Below, piece after piece: positions 15,681 through 37,433 of a stretch of 51,773 nt of DNA. The translations under genes and the position numbers were made by a program. The stretch is from Colwellia sp. Its GTDB lineage: Bacteria; Pseudomonadota; Gammaproteobacteria; Enterobacterales; Alteromonadaceae. The number at the start of each line of letters is the position of its first letter. Positions within the stretch are counted from its first letter, which is position 1. Below the pieces are notes generated by a model. The model saw only the letters and a program-made list of their open reading frames with translations. It was not told the DNA's origin and ran no database searches. The stretch lies in assembly GCA_016765685.1 (NCBI GenBank), contig JAESPR010000063.1, positions 1-51,773 on the forward strand, read 5' to 3'.

Positions 15681-15770
15681 TGACGAATCCCTTATAATTG
15701 CTAAAAATTAAATTGTATATAAAAAGGCGGGTGGTAACATATCGACTAATTGACAATCAATGTCGAAAAT

Positions 15771-16568
15771 ATGCCAAAAATAATAAAGATAGCTCCATCA
15801 AAAGAAAGTGAGCAAGTATTAAGTAATCCGATAACTGTTGTAAGCCGATCTATAACTATGAACTCTGTTGTAAGTAAGCACAGCCATAGTTGGGGGCAAT
15901 TTGTTTATGCTCATTCAGGTGTACTAGCTGTTTCAACACCTTCAAATCGTTATATAGTGCCTCCTGAACAAGGTGTATGGATATTGCCTAAGATTGAACA
16001 TGAAGTTACAGCGATCAGTAATGTTCAGTTAACCAGTTTCTATTTTGAGATTGCTTTGCTTAATGTGTTGCCAGTTGAATGCTGTGTATTAAAGGTTAAT
16101 GAGTTTTTAAAAGCATTAATAAAAGAAGCCAATATTATTAAAGGTGATTACCAATGGAATAGCACTGATGGTCGGTTGTTACGCTTAATTTTAGATAGAT
16201 TAACTCAAGCTCCTAACGAAGTATTTCAACTACCTTATCCTAAAGATAAAAGACTACTTACTATGCTAACTGCAATTCAGGCTAGTCCTGAAAATAACAG
16301 TAGCTTAGAGCAATGGGGAAAGGTTGTAGGTGCTTCTGCCAGAACCTTATCAAGATTATTTAAAAAGGAAACAGGGCTAAGCTATAGCGAATGGCGACAG
16401 CGTTTGAATATTCAGATAGCAATTACTCAGTTATCACTTGGTAAATCAATTACCAGTATATCGCTGCACCTTGGTTATGAATCACCGTCATCATTTATTC
16501 ACATGTTTAAAACTAAAACAGGTATGACACCAAGTTTTTATCGAGAGAATACAAAAGTTAAGAAATGA
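15771..16568 (+). CDS. AraC-family regulator with cupin sensor domain
   Basis: A 265-residue regulator. The start is placed at the ATG at 15771; a TTG at 15750 would add seven residues. The N-terminal cupin-like domain includes KHSHSWGQFVYAHSGVLAV and PPEQGVWILPKIEHEV. The C-terminal HTH_18 domain includes GASARTLSRLFKKETGLSYS and SLHLGYESPSSFIHMFKTKT, both helix-turn-helices intact. This is the YdeC/YkgD-like group, often next to the transporter it controls. It is divergent from the TauE-type exporter. A short inverted repeat, ATTGA-CAA-TCAAT, lies at 15749-15761 just before the start. Confidence 0.85.
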   Translation: MPKIIKIAPSKESEQVLSNPITVVSRSITMNSVVSKHSHSWGQFVYAHSGVLAVSTPSNRYIVPPEQGVWILPKIEHEVTAISNVQLTSFYFEIALLNVLPVECCVLKVNEFLKALIKEANIIKGDYQWNSTDGRLLRLILDRLTQAPNEVFQLPYPKDKRLLTMLTAIQASPENNSSLEQWGKVVGASARTLSRLFKKETGLSYSEWRQRLNIQIAITQLSLGKSITSISLHLGYESPSSFIHMFKTKTGMTPSFYRENTKVKK

Positions 16569-16608: not shown

Positions 16609-16903
16609 AATTTTTATATAAAATTAATCAATCAGTAATACACCAAACTACTTTGATGATATTCCATCTGTTTTATCTGCTATTCACTGATAAGGTTAAA
16701 TAACCTACAACCCAAACCAACTGATATTACTGGTGTTAATACCCAGTTCGGATATTTACACCAGCAACTAATTTACCCTAATACTCAATTCTCCCTAATG
16801 GGGTTTATGCTAAATAGGGTGGATTTTGTGCCTATAAAGTACACCAAGTAACAAATACAAAAAAACCTAACCGAAGTTAGGCCTGCTTGCTTCCATTGAG
16901 GAA
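16609..16903. repeat. Diverged copy A of the tRNA-Thr downstream region
   Basis: This stretch is collinear with 29155-29645, the DNA that follows the intact tRNA-Thr. A 27-nt exact block (16737-16763 against 29278-29304) and an 18-nt exact block, CCCTAATGGGGTTTATGC (16793-16810 against 29456-29473), sit in the same order with mismatches between. The later copy has about 120 extra bases. No gene is seen inside it. Confidence 0.75.
16859..16884 (-). terminator. Terminator after tRNA-Thr fragment
   Basis: Read on the minus strand: CCTAAC-TTCG-GTTAGG followed by seven T. The stable UUCG loop matches the terminator of the intact tRNA-Thr at 29611. It no longer has a transcribed gene in front of it. 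Confidence 0.75.
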
Positions 16904-16953
16904 TGGTGCCGACTGCCGGAGTCGAACTGGCGACCTACTGATTACAAGTCAGT
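16901..16953 (-). pseudogene. tRNA-Thr 3'-half remnant (copy 1)
   Basis: 53 nt identical to 29643-29695, from just outside the encoded CCA through the T arm, variable loop and anticodon arm (TGT), ending at the 5' side of the anticodon stem. The D arm and 5' acceptor strand are missing, so no tRNA can form. An exact 3' half with its terminator is the usual attR-like scar of integration at a tRNA. A perfect 8-bp-arm palindrome (ACACTACT-CTGT-AGTAGTGT, 16980-16999) lies just beyond the breakpoint. Confidence 0.85.
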
Positions 16954-17187
16954 AGCTAGGTGGTATAAAGGTGTTAAATACACTACTCTGTAGTAGTGTT
17001 CACGTAGATGGTTGCAACAATAGTGCTACTGAGTTTTAATTAATTACATTACTAGTAGAATAATTATTTAGTATTGGTTTAATTTATTGTGAAGACAATT
17101 GGTATAGCTTTAAGCCAAATCCGTCTCCCTAGCACTGTTTAAACTAAACTCATTTAAGTCATCATCATGTAATAAACTAAAATAACA
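16954..17187. other. Non-coding stretch inside putative island
   Basis: AT-rich DNA with the palindrome at 16980-16999 and no convincing reading frame, promoter or terminator. Confidence 0.4.
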
Positions 17188-17425: not shown

Positions 17426-18130
17426 ATGGAATATCAAATGAAATTAAAATTTTTTAAAACTATTTTACTAGGCTTATTATTCTCAATAAGTAGTTTAGCC
17501 AATGCTGGATTAATAATCACAATAGGTGACGTAGTAGGGACAAACACTTCTCTTTCTGTTTCACTTGTTGGTAGCGGTACGTTATCGTCCGATCTTGCCT
17601 CGCACCCTGACGGTACTGGTAGCCTAAAGATCTATACCGACTTTAGTGGATCGATTATAGATACCTGGCCAAACACTCGAGTAGGCTTTATTGGAGACGG
17701 CCTAACTCATTTCGCGGATAACAATATTGGAGATTATGTAGGGTTGGCCTACGGTTCATTTACTGCTGAACGGCTAGTAACCGAAATTACTATCAACAAC
17801 TTGACCGACGGCACCGTCGGTTTGGCAAGGTGGCTTGACATAGATGATGATGGGCTTGGTGATGATTTCGCTGTAATTCTTGATTCGATGGATCATTCTT
17901 TATTTGACATCGGAGACTCTTGGTCTGTAAATGGCTTCTCGATATTACAACTCCAACTTGGAAATGCTTCGGACTTTACACTTGGTACATATAGTTACAT
18001 AGACAACGCCTTAGGAGTTGTTACGCTTATTATTCAGAAAAATTCGGTTACTTCTGTCCCAGAGCCATCTACACTTGCTATTTTTGCATTAGGTATGATT
18101 GGCTTGGCATCACGTCGATTTAAGAAATAA
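17426..18130 (+). CDS. PEP-CTERM sorting-signal exported protein
   Basis: A 234-residue exported protein. It has a signal peptide (KLKFFKTILLGLLFSISSLANA) and ends in a textbook PEP-CTERM tail: VPEPST at about residue 211, a hydrophobic helix and the basic end SRRFKK. Such tails are cut by an exosortase/EpsH system that exports proteins with extracellular polysaccharide. The middle is Gly/Asp-rich, low in Cys, with no recognised domain. AAGGA lies six bases before the ATG. No exosortase is in the window, so the partner must be elsewhere or absent. It lies between two tRNA-Thr remnants. Confidence 0.85.
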   Translation: MEYQMKLKFFKTILLGLLFSISSLANAGLIITIGDVVGTNTSLSVSLVGSGTLSSDLASHPDGTGSLKIYTDFSGSIIDTWPNTRVGFIGDGLTHFADNNIGDYVGLAYGSFTAERLVTEITINNLTDGTVGLARWLDIDDDGLGDDFAVILDSMDHSLFDIGDSWSVNGFSILQLQLGNASDFTLGTYSYIDNALGVVTLIIQKNSVTSVPEPSTLAIFALGMIGLASRRFKK

Positions 18131-18433: not shown

Positions 18434-18481
18434 GAATGGTGCCGACTGCCGGAGTCGAACTGGCAACCTACTGATTACAAG
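18434..18481 (-). pseudogene. tRNA-Thr 3'-half remnant (copy 2)
   Basis: 48 nt matching 29643-29690 with one mismatch (GGCAACC for GGCGACC). It covers the CCA end through the T arm and variable loop to the anticodon loop and ends at about 18481. An inverted repeat, TAGCGG...CCGCTA (18483-18510), lies at the breakpoint. Like copy 1, it keeps a tRNA-Thr-type terminator but lacks the 5' half. Confidence 0.82.
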
Positions 18482-18588
18482 GTAGCGGCTTGGTATAGCT
18501 GATTCCGCTAATTATGCAGCTTAACTACATGAATAACAATTTGAAATACAATAATAGCCCTAGAGATTCTTCATGTAAAAGCTCGTTA

Positions 18589-21028: not shown

Positions 21029-21058
21029 AGCAGCAACAGTTATTATAATTAGATATAT

Positions 21059-21083
21059 AAATGCCAGTGATTAGCTGGCATTT
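21059..21083. terminator. Hairpin after lipoprotein gene
   Basis: AAATGCCAG-TGATTAG-CTGGCATTT, a perfect 9-bp stem 27 bp beyond the minus-strand lipoprotein stop. The A/T ends give short U tracts in both directions, so it could serve both strands. Confidence 0.65.
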
Positions 21084-21109
21084 ATAATTTACTTTGCTAC
21101 TTATGTAGG

Positions 21110-23401
21110 TTAATCAATAGTAACTGGTCGTTCTGCAATTTTGTGGATGGTTCTAATATCCCATTGCTGTAAGTCGAATTGATAAACTTCACTGTTTGGA
21201 TATAGATCATCCCAGTCATGATGTTGAAATAATAAGTATTGATCATTGCTAGTGCTGATTAAATTCCAAGTACGTGTATTAAATAAAAAACATTCGGTGT
21301 TATCAGCGTTACAGTCTGGTGAAAAACCATTTGTTTGCTTATCTTTATAACGTGTTATCGCTAAAGTACCATCGCTGTTTATTTTCCAATCACCCGTAGC
21401 TGTTATTATTTCGTCGGTGGTGATTGTGCCATTTCCATCTTTATCACTAATTCCAACGGTTAACGCAGTATTATCAGCATTCAATTCAATCCAAAATTGA
21501 TCTAAGGGGCTATCAAAAATAGCATTGTCGTACTTGTAAATGCCGACAATATTATCATTTGTCCAAGTAGCGGTTTCTGAAACTATATTACCTTCACCAA
21601 CTGTTTTGCTGATGATATTACCGCTTGCATCAATATGTTTCACCATTAAATGGCTCGCCACGTCATTTTTAGTATTAACCTGAACAATAATTATTTTTGA
21701 ATTATCACCAAACGAAATTGTTAATTCATTAGCCTCTTTTTGCCAAGTAAAGTCTTTAGGCAATACTTTAGTTGAACCCGTACCATCGGCATTAAAAGTA
21801 AATTTGTCAGCAAAAACATGCACAGTCAACTCGTTATATTGACCTGATGTTTGCTCATAAGGCAAAGTTAAATAAACGGCAGAGAGTGTATTTTGATTTG
21901 ATGGTAATTGTTTGGTGCTTTTTAATGCGGTATGTATTTGTGACTCACTACTGTTTTCATCAGAAAATTCACCATTTGGGTAATGTTTTAAGATGTTTTG
22001 AGTGATCACTAAATCATCATATGTACCATGTGATGAATAACGCTTAATTTCATAAGTTAATACGGTAGTTTCTAAATTAACTAGTTTTTTCACGCCACCA
22101 ATTTCAACAGTTACCTTACTAGCAACGGTTTCAGGTGAATTTAAGTTAACAGTAATAACACCTTCTGTTTCAGTCCAAGTGAATGCTGATTGTGCCTGTT
22201 TTATTGTTTTCGTTAACGTATTAAACCAAGTACCAGTACTGTCATCATTAAATTGAATTGAACCTAAGCTTTGTGTAAGGGGGTTGGTTGGTAGTAGATG
22301 ATAATTATCAGGAGTATTGTAAGTTGATGAATCTTTTAGTTTATCGCTTGATAAAATGTTTTGCTGAGTCTGTGAATATTCATCACTATCTTGAACATCA
22401 CTGACATAAACTTTAGCTTGTTCTATATCACTTACTAATTCTAAGGTATCACTAACATCTGCTGGTAAATCCGTATCTCCAGTTATTTTACTGTTTGAGG
22501 ATGAAGTACTTCTACTTACTTTAATTATTGACGTTTTTTGTACTTGTTGCCCTGTTTTTGCATTAATAGCGACATCAATTGCGGTTGCTAGAGTTAGTAC
22601 TGATTCATTGCTAACTTGCAGTTTACGCTGTGTAAACTCGGCATCGGTAAGTATATCGTTATTTTCACTGGCAACTTTAAGTAATCCATAATTTGCAGTG
22701 GTTATGTTACTAACATTTACAGCAAAAAATTCATCAGAAGTAAGTAATTCATCATTACCTGCCTTTTCACGAAGTAATGCCATACTACCTAACACTGATT
22801 TATAAGCGGCAATAGCATTATTACCTGTGCCTTTAGCTACAACATTAATGAAGCTATCTTCTAGGCTATCATCAAGTGTGATAAGCGCTTGATAATATCC
22901 TGTGTTATCAATAGTTGTAGTGAAGTTACTGTCAACACCCGATGCTGAAACAGTAATTTCTCCACCAAATAAGGCTTGATGGCTAACATAACCTTGAAGT
23001 GTGGTTGCTATGGTTAATTGTTTAACATCAACAGTCACTTTTTTACTTGCTATTGCGCCATCATTATCTGTGACGGTTAATTCAAGTTCAGCTTGGGCAT
23101 CTGCCATTAACTCAGGAGCGGTAAAGGTAAGAGTATTTGTATTATTACCTGATAACTCTAAATTGAGTTGCGACAATTCTTTCCATTGATAGCTTGATAT
23201 AGTGCCATCGCTATCACTAACTGTAGCTGTGATACTAAATGTTTCTTTTTCATTAATGGTTTTATTTTCAAGGGTTATGGTTGGTGCTTGATTAATTGGT
23301 TCAACTTTTGTTGTTTCTCCACCAGAGCCGCCACAACCAGTTAATATTACCCCCATAAGGGCTAAAGAAATTGCTGAGCTAAGTTTGTTTTTTATGATCA
23401 T
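21110..23401 (-). CDS. Lipoprotein with N-terminal PKD/Ig-like domain
   Basis: A 763-residue predicted lipoprotein. The ATG at 23401 is preferred because GGAAG lies five bases before it; an ATG at 23413 is in frame. The signal peptide ends in the lipobox LTGC, followed by GGSGGE. Residues about 35-130 (APTITLENKTINEKETFSI, then SSYQWKEL and ELTVTDNDGAIASKKVTVDV) are a PKD-like beta-sandwich. The remainder is not recognised; DKDGNGTITTDE near residue 665 looks like a calcium-binding loop. It lies downstream of the hybrid regulator on the same strand, and both share an upstream 21-bp-spaced repeat, so this is a likely regulatory target. The substrate or partner is unknown. Confidence 0.78.
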   Translation of the reverse strand: MIIKNKLSSAISLALMGVILTGCGGSGGETTKVEPINQAPTITLENKTINEKETFSITATVSDSDGTISSYQWKELSQLNLELSGNNTNTLTFTAPELMADAQAELELTVTDNDGAIASKKVTVDVKQLTIATTLQGYVSHQALFGGEITVSASGVDSNFTTTIDNTGYYQALITLDDSLEDSFINVVAKGTGNNAIAAYKSVLGSMALLREKAGNDELLTSDEFFAVNVSNITTANYGLLKVASENNDILTDAEFTQRKLQVSNESVLTLATAIDVAINAKTGQQVQKTSIIKVSRSTSSSNSKITGDTDLPADVSDTLELVSDIEQAKVYVSDVQDSDEYSQTQQNILSSDKLKDSSTYNTPDNYHLLPTNPLTQSLGSIQFNDDSTGTWFNTLTKTIKQAQSAFTWTETEGVITVNLNSPETVASKVTVEIGGVKKLVNLETTVLTYEIKRYSSHGTYDDLVITQNILKHYPNGEFSDENSSESQIHTALKSTKQLPSNQNTLSAVYLTLPYEQTSGQYNELTVHVFADKFTFNADGTGSTKVLPKDFTWQKEANELTISFGDNSKIIIVQVNTKNDVASHLMVKHIDASGNIISKTVGEGNIVSETATWTNDNIVGIYKYDNAIFDSPLDQFWIELNADNTALTVGISDKDGNGTITTDEIITATGDWKINSDGTLAITRYKDKQTNGFSPDCNADNTECFLFNTRTWNLISTSNDQYLLFQHHDWDDLYPNSEVYQFDLQQWDIRTIHKIAERPVTID

Positions 23402-23502
23402 AATATCTTCCATTTAGGGTTAATGTACCGCAGAACCTTCCAACCTATTGTTAGAAAAGAAAACAGTGTATTAACCATAATTGAAAGCTGCTTTTTTCGT
23501 GG

Positions 23503-23538
23503 TAACGTAACCGACTTTATGATGAACATAACCGACAA
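23503..23538. promoter_or_regulatory. 21-bp-spaced direct repeat upstream of lipoprotein gene
   Basis: TAACGTAACCGAC (23503-23515) and GAACATAACCGAC (23524-23536) repeat with a 21-bp period, or two helical turns, about 100-135 bp upstream of the lipoprotein start. The same pair occurs at the same distance and orientation before the hybrid regulator (27698-27734). AraC-type HTH domains bind such tandem sites, so this is probably the regulator's operator. Confidence 0.6.
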
Positions 23539-23590
23539 AAATAGATTTAATGTTTATATTTTAGTCGATTATTGTTTTTTGGAATTGTTG

Positions 23591-26500
23591 CTAGGCGACT
23601 TTTTCTTGAATATATTCAGAAGGGGACTGCTCAAAGGATGATTTAAAACTACGGCTAAAATAGCTCGATGAATTAAAGCCAACTAAGTCAGCAACATTAG
23701 AAATTGATTTACCAGCAAGCAATAACTCTTTTGATTTTTGTAAACGGAAGTAACGAATGAATTCGGCGGGTGTTTGATTGAATATCGCCTTGAGTTTACG
23801 TTGTAATTGGCGTTCACTCATCGCTATTTGATCTACCAATTGTTCAACGGTGAAAGTGCTATCAATATAGTTTTTCTCGACAATATTGTTGAGCTTTTCA
23901 ATAAAGTTTTTATCACGATCGGAAGTGTATTGAACACTATGTTTATTAGCGGCATTAGTTGTATCTAATATTAATTGCTTTTTAGTTAAGATGTTTTTAA
24001 CTTTAAGTAATAACTCCTTGGCATCAAATGGTTTGGTGATGTAATCAATAGAGCCAAGCTCTAAGCCTTTTAATTCGCTTTCTTTATCCGCTTTTGCCGT
24101 TAATAAAATAATAGGGATATGACAGGTATTATCGTGTTGTGTTAATTGTTCAACCAATTGATAGCCATTAAGCTCAGGCATCATTACATCAGAAATTATA
24201 AGGTCTGGTATTTCATCGATAGCGCTATTTACCCCTAACAAACCATTTTTAGCGGTTGTTACTGTATACTCAACAGAAAAAATATCAGCTAAGAAGTCAC
24301 GCAATTCAGCATTATCTTCAACAATGAGTATTGATTGTTTATTCTTCTCAGTAGTTTTTTTGTTTTTATTAACAGCTAGCTGATTGATTTGTCGTTGTGC
24401 TGGTGTAGCATCATCTTCAAGTAGTGAATAATCATCAATAGTTAAAATAAATGATACGGAACTATTTTTGTTATTCAAATCTTGATTACTTTTACACTCA
24501 ATATGCCAATTATTTTGCTGGCATAACTCTTTAACAAATGCCAAGCCTAAACCAAAGCCTTGTTCACTGTCTGATTGCCCTAAGCGTTCAAAACGTTCAA
24601 ATACTTTTTTAGTTTCTTGCTCTGTTAATCCTTGGTGAGAGTTTTCAATTATAAGTTGATATTGACCGTTTTGAATATTAGAAGTTAACTTAACCCAGCC
24701 AGTTTTAAAGGTATATTTGAGTGCATTAGTTAGTAAGTTTTCAATGATGGATGCTAAATCATCTTTATCAGCATTAAGAGCGGCATTGCTAGTTAAGTCT
24801 TTTGATAAATGAATGTTTTTTGCTTCTAGAAGAGGTTCAAAGGCAATGATGTATTTTACTAATTGATCATCAATGACGATGTTTTCTTTATTTTTACTCT
24901 TTGTTTCTACAAAAGTTAAATTTAGTATCTTTTCTACTAAATGAAAAAGACGCTTACTATTGTTATTTGCTAGCTTAAGTAATTTATTTTGTTTGGTTGT
25001 TAGTGTTTTATCATCAATTAGCTGCTCTAAAGGTGCGGATATTAACGTAAGTGGTGTGCGTAGTTCATGAGAGATATTAGCAAATAAATTTTCTTTTTGA
25101 ACAAGTAAATTATTCACTTCAGCAGTACGTTCTACTACTTTGCTTTCAAGTTGTTCTTGGTGTTGTTTGATACGATTTATGCGAATTTTATAGCCAGTAA
25201 ACAGTATCAATAGAATAAGGAATACATAGAATAAGTAAGCGGTAGTTGTCTGCCAAAATGGCGGTATGATATTGATAGATAACTTAGTTGTGCTGTTTTG
25301 CCAGTTACCTAAATGATCTGATGCTTGTAGTTCAATGTTAAGTGAACCAACTTCTTGGTTAAAAAATTGAATTTCACGGGTATTAACTATTTCATTCCAA
25401 TGAAGATTATTAATACGGTATCTATATTTTAATTTTTCAGGTCTACGGTAATCGTTTACGGCAAATGACAAAGTAAAATTGTTTTGGTTTGCTTGAAGAT
25501 CAAGCTTACTCGGTTTGGTAAGTTTTTCAGTTTCATCATTTTCTAAAAAATTAATTTCTGTAAAGTTAATCGTTGATTGAAAATGAGTTTGTTTACTTTG
25601 CTGAGTATTAACGCGTGTTACACCATCAATACCCGAAAAATATAACCAACCATTGTCAGGGTTAAAAATACCTTTGGTATTATATTCATTACCTTGAGTG
25701 CCATCTTCTTTATTAAACTTAACAGCACTTTTATTACTTAAGTTAACTCGATATAAACCATTAAATGTAGTGATCCAAAGCATGTTTGTTGATTCTTCGG
25801 CAATAGCTTGAATGTAATGACTATCTAGCTTTAACGGAAATGATTTGAATTTATTTTCTGATTCTTGATAGTGATATAAGCCAAAATTTGTTGCGAGCCA
25901 AATGCCACTACTCCCTTCAAAAACATGATAAACAGTTGCTTTAACATGATTATTATTTAAGAGTGAATAATTGATTATTTTATTACTTTTTTGATCAAAC
26001 TTGTCTATGCCACCACGAGAGCCAATCCAAATATTTTCATTTTTATCTTCGAGTAAACTGTAAATAGCCAAACTTTGTAATTGACCCCTTTGATCATTAG
26101 CTAATCCAATTAATTCAAATTCAGCAGTACTTTCATTAACTAGTTTGCTAAGTCCTCCCTCCCAGCTTGCCATGAATATATCGCCGTTTTTAGATTCAAT
26201 TACGTCAAGTACAGCATCTTCTCTGATATATTGATTGGCGAAATCTTTCTTTGTGAAACGAGATATCTCTTTTAGACTACTATCTAAGTGAATTAACCCT
26301 TTATCTGATGCTAACCAATAGCTTTGATCATCAGACTTTAGTATTTTTAGTACAAATGACTGGCTAACTTCATCTTTGAATGTGAGTTGACCATTTGCAG
26401 CAAGGGTGTAGCGGAATAACCCTTCCACCGAACCTGTCCATAGTTGATTGTTTTCAACATAGATAGAGTTTATATCACTTGATTTTAAAGCAGTATCATC

Positions 26501-27592
26501 TTGAGCATACAGATAATTTTGAAATTTAAAACCGTCACTGGGTATTGATACTAAACCAGTTTGATAATTTCCAAGCCATACTGTGCCATCATTACTGGTG
26601 TAAGCTGAGCGAACATATCTTATGCCTGTACCAAGTTCATGTTCTTTAAGTAATCTATATCGTTGAAAGTTATCTTTATTTCTATTATAAGTCACTGCCC
26701 CATAATTAGTACCTAGCCATAGCTTCTTCTGATTGTTTTCAGTAAAAGCAATAACCATATTGTTTGACAGTGTTGTTAGATCACTATCAATTGCATTGTA
26801 TTTTTTGAAGCATTGACATTTTGTAGAGTATTTATTTAAACCTTTGAGTTCAGCTCCAATCCAGACATCATCATAACTATCTACAAATAGGCTTGTTATT
26901 TGATTACTGAGTATAGAATTTTGTATTTGGGCGTTGTGCTCAAAATAAGTAAACATTTTGGTTATTGGGTTATACATATTTAGCCCACCGCCAAGTGTAC
27001 CTATCCAAATGTTATTTTTACTGTCCTTACTTAAAGATGAAATTTTTTGATGATTAGTACCTAAACCATTAGTTGAATTAAAATCAATGCGTTGAATGTT
27101 ATGGCTGTGAATATCTAATTTTGAAATGCCTAAGTTTGTAGCAATCCACAAAAAGTGATCATCACTTTCTAAAGCGTTTATAGCATTACTGCTTAATGAG
27201 TTTTTATTTAAAGAGTCATAGTAAAAATTAATAAAGCTGTCAGTTTCTGCTCTATATAAGCTTAATCCACCTGATTCCGTACCAATCCATAGTTGATTGT
27301 GTATATCTACATGTAAACTGGTAACTCTTGGGCCAGCTAAACTGTTTTTTTGATCTGGATGGTAGCGATAAATTTTAAAGTTTTGACCATCAAAGCGATT
27401 TAGACCATCTTCTGTGCCAAACCACATATAACCATTATTATCTTGTGTTATTGCTGTAACAATATTATTAGATAAGCCATTTTCTGTGGTGTATGAAATG
27501 TAATTTGGATCAGGTAAATAGGTGCTGTCTAATTCGCTTGCAAATGACACTTGAGAAAATACGAGAAGAAAGCAGAAAAATATTTTTGGCAT
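23591..27592 (-). CDS. Hybrid two-component system regulator (sensor kinase + AraC output)
   Basis: A 1333-residue single-chain sensor and transcription factor. A signal peptide (MPKIFFCFLLVFSQVSFA) is followed by two-component-regulator propeller repeats to about 720 (ITQDNNGYMWFGTEDGLNRF and many similar units), a Y_Y_Y domain at about 730-800, one membrane helix at about 780-800, HisKA (FANISHELRTPLTLI, about 837), HATPase (GFGLGLAFVKEL), a receiver (ILIVEDNAELRDF, with Asp in ISDVMMPE at about 1134), and a C-terminal HTH_18 domain with two helix-turn-helices. In Bacteroidetes these HTCS proteins sense oligosaccharides in the periplasm. No polysaccharide-utilisation genes are adjacent; the only likely target here is the lipoprotein gene. 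Confidence 0.9.
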   Translation of the reverse strand: MPKIFFCFLLVFSQVSFASELDSTYLPDPNYISYTTENGLSNNIVTAITQDNNGYMWFGTEDGLNRFDGQNFKIYRYHPDQKNSLAGPRVTSLHVDIHNQLWIGTESGGLSLYRAETDSFINFYYDSLNKNSLSSNAINALESDDHFLWIATNLGISKLDIHSHNIQRIDFNSTNGLGTNHQKISSLSKDSKNNIWIGTLGGGLNMYNPITKMFTYFEHNAQIQNSILSNQITSLFVDSYDDVWIGAELKGLNKYSTKCQCFKKYNAIDSDLTTLSNNMVIAFTENNQKKLWLGTNYGAVTYNRNKDNFQRYRLLKEHELGTGIRYVRSAYTSNDGTVWLGNYQTGLVSIPSDGFKFQNYLYAQDDTALKSSDINSIYVENNQLWTGSVEGLFRYTLAANGQLTFKDEVSQSFVLKILKSDDQSYWLASDKGLIHLDSSLKEISRFTKKDFANQYIREDAVLDVIESKNGDIFMASWEGGLSKLVNESTAEFELIGLANDQRGQLQSLAIYSLLEDKNENIWIGSRGGIDKFDQKSNKIINYSLLNNNHVKATVYHVFEGSSGIWLATNFGLYHYQESENKFKSFPLKLDSHYIQAIAEESTNMLWITTFNGLYRVNLSNKSAVKFNKEDGTQGNEYNTKGIFNPDNGWLYFSGIDGVTRVNTQQSKQTHFQSTINFTEINFLENDETEKLTKPSKLDLQANQNNFTLSFAVNDYRRPEKLKYRYRINNLHWNEIVNTREIQFFNQEVGSLNIELQASDHLGNWQNSTTKLSINIIPPFWQTTTAYLFYVFLILLILFTGYKIRINRIKQHQEQLESKVVERTAEVNNLLVQKENLFANISHELRTPLTLISAPLEQLIDDKTLTTKQNKLLKLANNNSKRLFHLVEKILNLTFVETKSKNKENIVIDDQLVKYIIAFEPLLEAKNIHLSKDLTSNAALNADKDDLASIIENLLTNALKYTFKTGWVKLTSNIQNGQYQLIIENSHQGLTEQETKKVFERFERLGQSDSEQGFGLGLAFVKELCQQNNWHIECKSNQDLNNKNSSVSFILTIDDYSLLEDDATPAQRQINQLAVNKNKKTTEKNKQSILIVEDNAELRDFLADIFSVEYTVTTAKNGLLGVNSAIDEIPDLIISDVMMPELNGYQLVEQLTQHDNTCHIPIILLTAKADKESELKGLELGSIDYITKPFDAKELLLKVKNILTKKQLILDTTNAANKHSVQYTSDRDKNFIEKLNNIVEKNYIDSTFTVEQLVDQIAMSERQLQRKLKAIFNQTPAEFIRYFRLQKSKELLLAGKSISNVADLVGFNSSSYFSRSFKSSFEQSPSEYIQEKVA

Positions 27593-27697
27593 TTATTATT
27601 TTCATCCATAAGTAAATAAACAAGTTACAGCTTGGGAAGCATACAAATATGTAAGAACGTTAACAAGTTATCTTATGTTATTTTGCATATTCGAGCA

Positions 27698-27734
27698 TTA
27701 AACAAGCCGACATTAAGTTGAACATACCCGACAA
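27698..27734. promoter_or_regulatory. 21-bp-spaced direct repeat upstream of hybrid regulator
   Basis: CCGAC cores at 27707-27711 and 27728-27732, each preceded by AACA, are 21 bp apart and about 106-142 bp upstream of the regulator start. The layout matches the site at 23503-23538, so the regulator probably controls itself. Confidence 0.6.
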
Positions 27735-28846: not shown

Positions 28847-29154
28847 AAGTTAATTTTGAGAATAGCTGTATTGGCGTAAACATCATACCTATTTTTTCAT
28901 TTTATACTCGCATTTATTTTTTGACCGTCACTAATGTAAGTTTCCAATAGGTTTTTAACCCAATCAGGACGTTTTCCACTTCACCCATAACGTTCTCAAA
29001 CTATTAGTTACTCCTTATATTATTATAGCAACTGAAACATGCCTGTGATTTCCTTGTTTGGTATAGGTAATGAAATGAATTAAGGAAGTAAAAACAAAGT
29101 TAACCTACAGAAAAAATAGAGCAAAAGAATCAGACAGTTATTTCTTAACTTAAT

Positions 29155-29645
29155 TGATATAAACTTAATTAATCAATAATACACCAAACAAGTTTAGCAA
29201 TAATCAATCTGTGTTATCTGCTATTCACTGGTCAATTTAAAGCAACCACAGCACAAACCAACGGATATCACTGGTGCTAATACCCAGTTCGGATATTTAC
29301 ACCATCAACTAACTCACCCTAATAAATTTCACCCGCAGTTATAGCGGCCTATACGTCAACCCATACACCCTAAGCAACGGCTTAAATCCTTTTTTCTCCG
29401 TAAAACCGCCAGATAAAGCATTAAAACAATCGAATTTACCCTAATATCAAATATGCCCTAATGGGGTTTATGCGAAATAGGGGGTATTTTGTGCCTATCA
29501 GGTATACCAATAAATTATTGAAACGTGTGTGTAGACCACTAATAATGCAGGGTAGTTAAAATATTGGTGTAAGTGATATTTAGGAAATAAATTAACCGAG
29601 CGATAAATACAAAAAAGCCCCAACCGAAGTTGAGGCTTGAATGAA
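29155..29645. repeat. Diverged copy B of the tRNA-Thr downstream region
   Basis: Non-coding DNA directly downstream of the intact tRNA-Thr. It is collinear with 16609-16903 and carries about 120 extra bases around 29325-29445 and a longer spacer before the terminator. No gene is seen from 28850 to 29645. Confidence 0.7.
29611..29637 (-). terminator. Terminator of the tRNA-Phe/tRNA-Thr operon
   Basis: Minus strand: AAGCCTCAAC-TTCG-GTTGGGGCTT followed by T6, a 10-bp stem with one U-G pair and a UUCG loop, nine bases after the tRNA-Thr CCA end. Confidence 0.85.
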
Positions 29646-29721
<76 letters not shown>

Positions 29722-35882: not shown

Positions 35883-37433
35883 AGATCTTCATCAGTGTTC
35901 CTTTCTTTTTCATACTTGTGGGATCAATCGTGCGACCAAGGCTTCCATAACCGATACCAACGACTTTCCTGTCATTATCGCGTTTTGAACTAACCGAATA
36001 GTATACGAGCTTATACGTACGATCCTCGATTGAAAATGTAACGGGTTAACAAAACCACCTTCTTTTTTTGCCGCTTTATCTCTTTTTTCAAGTGCTTTAC
36101 TATACTTTTTATCGGATGGATGTATGTGTTTTGGGGCTTGAGTTTTTGAAACCTCTTCAAATACACGCATTAAATTGTAAGTCATTGTGGTGAGCCGCAT
36201 TTGGTTTTTTAGCGCGTTAAAATTAGATGACCAAGCCTTTTTTTCCTTCAAATCACTTTTACTGTTATTGAACGCCTTCTCAACTGTCCATCGCTTGAAA
36301 TAGAGCATGGCGATCGTTCCTGGATTAACGCACTCTGGTAAAGTGGTTACAAAACGGTGAAGTATGCGTGTTTCTGGATCTCGGTATTCCACAAGACTAA
36401 ATTTTATGCCCTTGTTTTCGTAAATGCTATAGCTTTCAATGCCTATATTGACGTCACTCTTGTCATCGAATGGGATCGATTCAAAAAATGTGGCTACCGA
36501 GTTCTCTTTTAATACTGAGATCATATAATTATCATGTAATTTCTGAGCTTCCCACCACGAATGATCTGTTACGGCTTTGTCGTACACATAGAGCTGCTTT
36601 CCCTGTTTATTCTTGTTGTTATTTTGTGTTTCAATATAATTTCGTAGGGCGGGAATTTCGTGATTTCGCTTTGTGCCATTTGTCACACAGCAAAGAGGTC
36701 TAAGTAGTCCATTTTTAAGATTCATCGCATAAATAAATCCAGCTGCGTAAACTTTTCCATTTTTCGATTTTCCTGTGTGGCAAGCATGATCAATAAAATG
36801 CCCATCAGCCGCCTCTACGGTATATTGCTTAAGCTCAGGAAATTGTTTGAGATAGTCAATACCGCTCTCCTCTAGTGTCTTGGAGTGAAGTTGATAACTT
36901 TGCTCTTCGAGCGCCTCAAGCATTTTTCTACGCCTTAGCGACTTGAGTGAATTAAAATAAGTGGATAAAGGAAGTTGTTCATCATGAACATTGTCTGCTG
37001 TTTGAAGAAAATGACGACCACTGTTAACAGTGCTCATGCAACGCATTAATCCAAAGCGAGTAAAGTCAATGTCACTCATTTCAGGGCATGATCTATCCCA
37101 TAAAGGATAGCGCTCCGCTGAAAGCGCCTTCTCCATGCTTTCATTGCAGTGCGCGATAATGTAGTCATTTAAACTGATGTTTTCGTTCATGTTAGATCTC
37201 CGAGTAGTGCTTGTCAAAACGGTAAATCTTGAAAAAATTTTTGGTCATTGCAAGTGTTTTTTCAAATAAAATGGCATTTTTTCAGTTTAAAGATAACGCC
37301 TCTGATGACAATATTATTGGTTTACTGCATTACTCTAAAAAGGTGATATGGGAGAGTTATGAGCTGAAACAGGATGAAAAACAAAGCTTTTTTTAGCCTC
37401 GCTCTCTTTTAACTGGAACACCGATGGAGATCT
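35883..37433. mobile_element. IS4-family insertion sequence, complete
   Basis: Inverted ends AGATCTTCATCAGTGTTCC (35883-35901) and the inverse of AGATCTCCATCGGTGTTCC (37415-37433) match at 17 of 19 bases. Length is 1551 bp, with one intact transposase. The adjoining 9 bp (TGATGTATG on the left, TGAAGTAAA on the right) agree at six of nine positions, a possible decayed 9-bp target duplication, the size made by IS10/IS50 relatives. About 225 bp between the transposase start and the right end hold a short frame (37270-37395) of doubtful meaning. Confidence 0.75.
35910..37190 (-). CDS. IS4-family transposase
   Basis: A 426-residue DDE transposase starting at the ATG at 37190, chosen because GGAG lies seven bases before it; a longer frame begins at 37217. 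The YREK signature of the IS4 family is exact: Y-x2-R-x3-E-x6-K in YFKRWTVEKAFNNSK at about residue 305. AADGHFIDHACH carries the first catalytic Asp, and VYDKAVTDHSWW contains the second Asp region. The frame is intact and the ends are recognisable, so it may still be active. Confidence 0.88.
   Translation of the reverse strand: MNENISLNDYIIAHCNESMEKALSAERYPLWDRSCPEMSDIDFTRFGLMRCMSTVNSGRHFLQTADNVHDEQLPLSTYFNSLKSLRRRKMLEALEEQSYQLHSKTLEESGIDYLKQFPELKQYTVEAADGHFIDHACHTGKSKNGKVYAAGFIYAMNLKNGLLRPLCCVTNGTKRNHEIPALRNYIETQNNNKNKQGKQLYVYDKAVTDHSWWEAQKLHDNYMISVLKENSVATFFESIPFDDKSDVNIGIESYSIYENKGIKFSLVEYRDPETRILHRFVTTLPECVNPGTIAMLYFKRWTVEKAFNNSKSDLKEKKAWSSNFNALKNQMRLTTMTYNLMRVFEEVSKTQAPKHIHPSDKKYSKALEKRDKAAKKEGGFVNPLHFQSRIVRISSYTIRLVQNAIMTGKSLVSVMEALVARLIPQV

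Follow-up and report, generated by a model that had tools for sequence, protein, structure and literature searches.

A tandem, operator-like element lies ahead of two adjacent genes in a 51,773-nucleotide stretch of Colwellia sp. DNA (contig JAESPR010000063.1 of assembly GCA_016765685.1, here called the window), one encoding a 1333-residue hybrid two-component system (HTCS) regulator and the other a lipoprotein with a PKD domain. We take the two copies to be the operator of the adjoining HTCS, which would activate its own gene and the lipoprotein gene, and give this a probability of roughly 0.77; it is the best reading because of the form of the operator, its position, and the enrichment of its core and spacing in other HTCS loci. 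HTCSs have been studied mainly in Bacteroidota, as sugar sensors. The window's pair hints at a small circuit that controls itself and a protein of the cell surface, in place of the genes for sugar digestion that such regulators usually govern. The motif appears to be a single instance of a more general operator, two WTGTCG-N6-T-N2-AA half-sites 21 bp apart, and the suggestion of such a TGTCG operator across gammaproteobacterial HTCS loci is what is new here.

Two matching putative operators in the window

Each operator is on the minus strand and comprises two half-sites at a 21-bp spacing. That of the HTCS gene (27700–27734) reads TTGTCGG-GTATGTTCA-N..-TGTCGG-CTTGTTT and that of the lipoprotein gene (23504–23538) reads TTGTCGG-TTATGTTCA-N..-AGTCGG-TTACGTT, the form common to both in the direction of the genes being TTGTCGG-K-TATGTTCA-N7-GTCGG, with a T-rich B box after it. 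An earlier note on this DNA had described CCGAC cores 21 bp apart before both genes, and the pair proved to be exact: the pattern CCGAC-N16-CCGACAA occurred twice in the window (plus strand, 23511–23538 and 27707–27734) and in none of 100 dinucleotide shuffles of it. Among the matches listed, exact TGAACATANCCGACAA was found at these two sites only, and the next best match had two mismatches.

The note had also placed both copies at an equal distance from their genes. The HTCS operator lies 108–142 bp upstream of the start codon at 27592, and the lipoprotein operator 91–125 bp upstream of the open reading frame (ORF) start at 23413. The likely start of the lipoprotein is its second methionine, at 23401 (763 amino acids), with GGAAG ahead of it; since this start puts the operator 103–137 bp upstream, the equal distance holds if the lipoprotein begins there.

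The best 36-mer shared by the two upstream regions had 28 matches, compared with a maximum of 26 across 3000 dinucleotide-shuffled pairs. As the genes are adjacent and in tandem, a local duplication could have left this element as the remnant of a copied promoter region and not as a functional operator. Identity between the copies, however, falls at the operator edges, from 28/36 inside to 14/40 in the distal and 12/40 in the proximal flank, and both the exact internal spacing and the occurrence of this core at this spacing in other loci (see below) make such a remnant very improbable.

Possible −10 hexamers on the minus strand, TAAGAT for the HTCS promoter (27670–27675) and TATGGT for the lipoprotein promoter (23474–23479), are found at the same offset (+59), each matching TATAAT at 4/6 positions. 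The pair is weak, because an equal coincidence near that offset arose in 12% of shuffles. A promoter scan gave 29 hits against 35.7 in shuffles.

The HTCS, its presumed partner, and a possible mechanism

The HTCS gene (23591–27592, minus strand) encodes, in order, a signal peptide, a Reg_prop propeller, Y_Y_Y, a transmembrane stretch near residue 790, HisKA, HATPase_c, Response_reg, and an AraC-type helix-turn-helix (HTH) domain, HTH_18, with the signal peptide and the transmembrane stretch both called by eye. Reg_prop scored 112.2 bits (cut-off 20.4), and Y_Y_Y was slightly below its cut-off of 26.6 (26.1 bits, E 8.2e-6). The kinase, ATPase, receiver, and HTH domains lie in one chain at residues 832–1329, all above their Pfam cut-offs. 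The nearest solved structures were those of two HTCS propellers, 4a2l and 3v9f, and of the receiver-HTH part of an HTCS, 12aw.

An S/CHIP-D-K motif that inhibits the receiver-HTH module has been described, with a D-K spacing of 39 residues in BT4124 (PMC11253607). The window's HTCS carries CHIP at 1157, D1227, and K1266, the D-K distance again being 39 residues, and because this motif is present the HTCS is predicted to be held off at rest. S/CHIP was found in 33 of the 45 HTCSs compared (set defined below), and in an alignment inspected by eye most of the 45 have a recognition helix that fits S-[ED]-RQ-x-x-RK.

The lipoprotein gene (21110–23413, minus strand, 767 amino acids from the first start) lies 3′ of the HTCS gene across a gap of 178 bp. 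Inspection of the translation by eye revealed a signal peptide with a lipobox, LTGC, followed by GGSGG, and the sole domain recognized was a K319L-like PKD/Big_9 domain at residues 41–130; no Pfam family exceeded its cut-off in the other roughly 630 residues. A single-sequence AlphaFold model of the lipoprotein was discarded (pLDDT 34).

In the mechanism we propose, the periplasmic propeller of the HTCS would sense a ligand, and the kinase would then phosphorylate the fused receiver, freeing the AraC-type HTH. Two protomers would occupy the tandem half-sites on the same DNA face, two turns apart and just upstream of the promoter, each half-site consisting of a TGTCG box and, about one helical turn on, a T..AA box. 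Transcription of the HTCS gene itself, by positive feedback, and of an outer-membrane lipoprotein would be activated. The sequences of the two sites, their spacing, their restriction to these places in the draft genome, the enrichment of their core and spacing in other HTCS loci, and the protein domains are shown directly; from these we infer that the HTCS is the binder, that binding occurs, that it activates rather than represses and feeds back positively, that a ligand is sensed, and that the lipoprotein resides in the outer membrane. Such a pair would amount to a natural sensor circuit of compact size with only one output, which would make it handy for reporter-based ligand finding.

The architecture of the operator is already known, since the HTCS motifs reported for Bacteroides are direct repeats with a mean spacing of 21 bp. 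This holds for all the predicted motifs as presented in PMC3878776, where the spacing is explained by two monomers bound to one DNA face, two turns apart, and half-sites of 16+5, 12+9, and 14+6 bp are given. The window's operators share this form, and its HTCS has the same domain order and CHIP-D-K motif as the Bacteroides HTCSs BT1754, BT4124, and BT4663. Unlike those systems, the window pair has a TGTCG core, apparent autoregulation, and a PKD lipoprotein as partner, and neither susC/susD nor another sugar-utilization gene was seen to adjoin the HTCS gene.

AraC/XylS-family activators use tandem 17-bp half-sites (AraC I1-I2). The window's system resembles them in its two-HTH DNA-binding domain, in direct repeats two helical turns apart, and in promoter-proximal placement, but its HTH ends a membrane sensor kinase, whereas theirs belongs to a soluble ligand-binding protein.

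A possible wider TGTCG operator in gammaproteobacterial HTCS loci

When the receiver-HTH region was used as the query against 394 genomes of the order (E ≤ 1e-25), 57 had matches, the own genome included, and the closest match outside the own genome had 51% identity. Forty fetched loci, the window, and two further loci (L072 and L132) yielded a set of 45 proteins from 43 loci, each longer than 1200 residues and containing both receiver and HTH. After removal of L203, a near-duplicate of L202, 42 loci were used for the 5-mer and half-site scans. Over their best BLAST segments, the other gammaproteobacterial AraC-type HTCSs are about 25–32% identical to the window's HTCS and have a similar recognition helix, and part of them have TGTCG-N16-TGTCG operators. 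These operators precede genes beside the HTCS gene, many of which encode lipoproteins, double-glycine-leader peptides, or proteins that look secreted; unlike in the window, they do not precede the HTCS gene itself.

The 5-mer scan was prompted by an array read by eye in a congener (G023), where a lipoprotein homologue of 632 residues with a PKD domain (34% identity over residues 27–336) and a divergently oriented propeller fragment of 274 residues lie side by side in locus L063. In the intergenic DNA (L063, 7883–7961), TGTCG boxes recur every 21 bp; three are exact, the fourth reads TGCCG, and they are oriented toward the lipoprotein as in the window. By eye, the propeller fragment ends just before the start of an apparent insertion-sequence gene, near the contig end, and seems to have been truncated by that element.

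In an unbiased scan, every 5-mer at distances of 12–40 was counted in the non-coding DNA of the 42 loci, and the top pair was CGACA (= TGTCG) at 21, with 11 occurrences spread over 8 loci when the window is counted and 10 over 7 loci when it is not. The mean for TGTCG at other distances was 0.2, and the next words listed, at distance 14, came from one or two loci and apparently from a tandem array. In whole HTCS loci, TGTCG occurred 13 times at distance 21 compared with a mean of 0.96 elsewhere (maximum 4). An alignment of 28 half-sites gave the consensus WTGTCG-N6-T-N2-AA. Two such half-sites at a threshold of 14/16 matched 13 times at spacing 21 and 9 times summed over 16 other spacings, a test with some circularity, as those loci had themselves supplied the half-site; in the control loci there were four matches at spacing 21 (three in the G023 array, one in L123) and one elsewhere. 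Lowering the threshold to 13 gave 20 matches in 13 loci, two of them in coding sequence, against 0–8 at other spacings. In 18 Bacteroidota HTCS loci, the half-site gave only one or two matches at spacing 21, and therefore the TGTCG core seems to be a feature of the HTCSs of Gammaproteobacteria.

A genome-wide consensus scan of 49 genomes allowing one mismatch yielded 41 matches compared with 28 in the reversed control, so that most one-mismatch matches are noise. Of the 29 genomes selected mainly for their HTCSs, 4 contained all 11 perfect matches, whereas the 20 genomes that lacked an HTCS match contained none; the consensus had been derived in part from six of these 11 sites. The other five (four in G335, one in G364) are outside ORFs of at least 150 amino acids and 70–214 bp upstream of ORFs of 193, 969, 600, 264, and 623 residues, with N-termini suggestive of a signal peptide, lipobox, or membrane segment. 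Ten of the 30 one-mismatch matches were fetched with their surroundings, and those in G060, G399, and G065 and one in G364 fall in coding sequence and seem to be chance matches. The earlier note's reading is supported to this extent: the operator in the window has the form of the roughly 21-bp direct repeats of HTCSs, it precedes both genes, and its core and spacing are enriched in other HTCS loci.

Several results weigh against control of both genes by the HTCS, or against the wider operator. The HTCS operator scores 15/16 with the wider half-site taken twice, but the lipoprotein operator is poor by that consensus and is absent from the matches scoring at least 13. Even at threshold 13, 29 of the 42 HTCS loci had no operator match, and the window's HTCS gene was the only HTCS gene preceded by an operator among the matches. 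Self-comparison of 45 HTCS upstream regions revealed no clear excess at period 21. In 33 control loci, TGTCG at distance 21 was also in some excess, with five occurrences (two in the G023 array, two in L123, and one in L064) against a mean of 0.7 and a maximum of 3 elsewhere. Upstream regions of an HTCS gene and a neighbour shared a 36-mer with at least 26 matches in 6 of 368 pairs, the window's included, compared with 0 of 528 cross-locus pairs; three pairs have more matches than the window's 28, although what they share resembles palindromes or repeated elements.

A second HTCS-lipoprotein tandem was not found in 99 genomes searched and 11 homologue loci fetched. The lipoprotein search matched 68 of these genomes, mostly through the PKD part, and among the fetched loci only that of G023 had a propeller fragment beside the lipoprotein homologue. 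Consequently, the window's two sites cannot be footprinted, as no orthologous tandem was found. Twenty propeller loci from the own and congeneric genomes were unusable for the same purpose, because only L132 had a window-like HTH on the propeller ORF.

Ownership of the operator and size of the regulon

AraC-type proteins generally use tandem direct repeats, and the operator could belong to another such regulator, the HTCS being merely its target. HTH_18 matched 11 times in the draft genome, and only the HTCS has its match in a large ORF; one of the others is in the window, in a 272-residue AraC-family protein (15750–16568). An operator-like site of score 13 at 15740–15776, the sole other one in the scanned stretch of the window, overlaps the start of this gene. 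That site looks to be at chance level, its score being one at which other spacings also match, and it sits on a start codon, not 90–140 bp upstream of one, yet it keeps a small link to the AraC-family gene open. The enrichment of TGTCG-N16-TGTCG around AraC-type HTCS genes of other genomes and the restriction of perfect consensus matches to genomes chosen mainly for HTCSs also point to the HTCS, and ownership by another regulator is therefore unlikely in our judgement.

The earlier note counted a random scatter of the motif through the genome as evidence against its reading. No such scatter was seen: CCGAC-N16-CCGACAA occurred only at the two window sites in the whole draft genome (3,015,852 bases), and exact CCGAC-N16-CCGAC had three matches, the third (contig C122) with an unrelated spacer. 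A 19-position pattern made from both sites, with up to three mismatches, gave no third copy in the draft genome (reversed control, 2). A 15-position pattern with up to two mismatches found three extra matches, which are within the control level (five in total against nine in the reversed control). The wider consensus gave one more match with a single mismatch in the own genome (C118:3434), which was also inspected; it falls within an ORF of 165 residues and is probably a chance match. Across 39 genomes, the literal motif had no genus-wide enrichment, because 10 matches compared with 22 in the reversed control, 6 of those 22 coming from one genome.

The claim that the lipoprotein is the single partner is not established, because the genome is 77% complete (76.85%) and a diverged site would be missed. 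A regulon of more than two genes, with further targets in the missing 23% of the genome or behind diverged operators, is a plausible alternative at somewhat less than even odds. The HTCS-rich genomes G335 and G364 point in its direction, having nine and seven matches with at most one mismatch on several contigs (reversed control, 0 and 1), whereas the pattern searches of the own genome, which returned the two known sites and matches at control level or looking like chance, speak against it.

Genes near operators and near other HTCSs

Apparent targets of this HTCS group would often be secreted or surface proteins, and the window's operator would be part of a code, WTGTCG-N6-T-N2-AA at 21-bp intervals, that these gammaproteobacterial HTCSs have in common. 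In a comparison that is suggestive only and applies a crude criterion of hydrophobicity, N-termini resembling signal peptides were counted in 13 of 18 operator targets of at least 90 amino acids, against 228 of 535 genes of at least 100 amino acids from the same loci. Targets shorter than 90 amino acids were left out of this count, since they were listed only if secreted-looking or with a double-glycine leader. For 6 of the 28 operators in non-coding DNA, the rule applied assigned no gene in the forward direction.

In L171, peptides of 64 and 56 residues with double-glycine leaders are encoded downstream of operators, the second of which scores only 13, and in L184 a 65-residue peptide whose leader resembles those of L171 follows an operator scoring 13. 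ABC exporters with C39 peptidases are nearby, by C39 matches in L184 and L194 and by sequence likeness in L171, and HTCS control of exported peptides is possible in L171 and L184. Other operator targets are a 186-residue secreted-looking protein and a 194-residue lipoprotein (L180), small related proteins behind several operators (L177), and a 1267-residue protein (L181).

No match to a TonB receptor, SusD, or glycoside hydrolase was obtained at the thresholds used for the 27 window proteins scanned of 43 listed ORFs, and in these the link of HTCSs to polysaccharide utilization loci, which is usual but not obligatory, was not seen. Near the other HTCSs, 102 proteins of 280–1300 amino acids within 2.5 kb were collected and 96 entered the family scan; the six left out were four from L203 and one each from L196 and L184, the last two being scanned separately. 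Among the 25 of 136 families listed for the 96 neighbours, no TonB, SusD, or glycoside-hydrolase family had two or more members, although lone representatives of sugar-enzyme families may be present, and a single TonB receptor was seen near an HTCS (L188). Other neighbours were M4 and M9 peptidases, RHS proteins, and FG-GAP, cadherin, and Big_9 or PKD proteins. The earlier note's contrast between HTCSs that usually run large sugar loci and a new, minimal version thus stands only in part: it is not special to the window, because other HTCS neighbours are rarely sugar-uptake genes.

A tentative idea, which we place just short of even odds, is that a gammaproteobacterial group of HTCSs has left the sugar role and turns on single dispersed genes through one conserved operator code, the products being lipoproteins and other proteins that are secreted or at the surface, and peptides with double-glycine leaders. 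The window would be the smallest form, in which an HTCS turns on itself and a single lipoprotein of the outer membrane. If such a code can be read from gammaproteobacterial sequence, likely targets of uncharacterized HTCSs could be listed, and it points to secreted proteins and peptides, not sugar enzymes. Among the open-access titles listed, none was on a TGTCG operator or on HTCS control of secreted proteins in Gammaproteobacteria.

Two recurrent gene arrangements were also observed. In L072, L185, L190, and L209, the HTCS gene adjoins one for a very large protein (2200–2400 amino acids), with RHS repeats by Pfam in L072 and L185 and homology to the L072 protein in L190 and L209. In L199, L202, and L203, the HTCS gene is followed in tandem by that of an M4 metallopeptidase with two CBM5/12 stretches (Pfam matches shown for L199 and L202, of which L203 is the near-duplicate). 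Footprinting of the HTCS-M4 peptidase pair in three genomes gave conserved stretches, with no 21-bp repeat by eye.

Genomic surroundings

A terminator-like hairpin with a stem of 13 pairs (21056–21086, listed on the plus strand) lies just 3′ of the lipoprotein gene; four such hairpins were observed in the region compared with 3.7 expected in shuffles.

The HTCS pair may be inside a tRNA-flanked island. The 3′ part of a tRNA-Thr gene (29646–29721, minus strand) is repeated at 16901–16957, with 98% identity to the gene's copy, and at 18434–18490, and DNA beyond it (29154–29324 and 29433–29510) is repeated at 16613–16847 with 83–85% identity. No integrase was found among the proteins scanned in the stretch flanked by the tRNA repeats. 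An island test via the amidohydrolase flank was uninformative, because the stretches from five relatives contained no tRNA. Elsewhere in the window, a PEP-CTERM protein gene is present near the HTCS pair (17426–18130), and a DDE transposase gene is found at 35910–37217.

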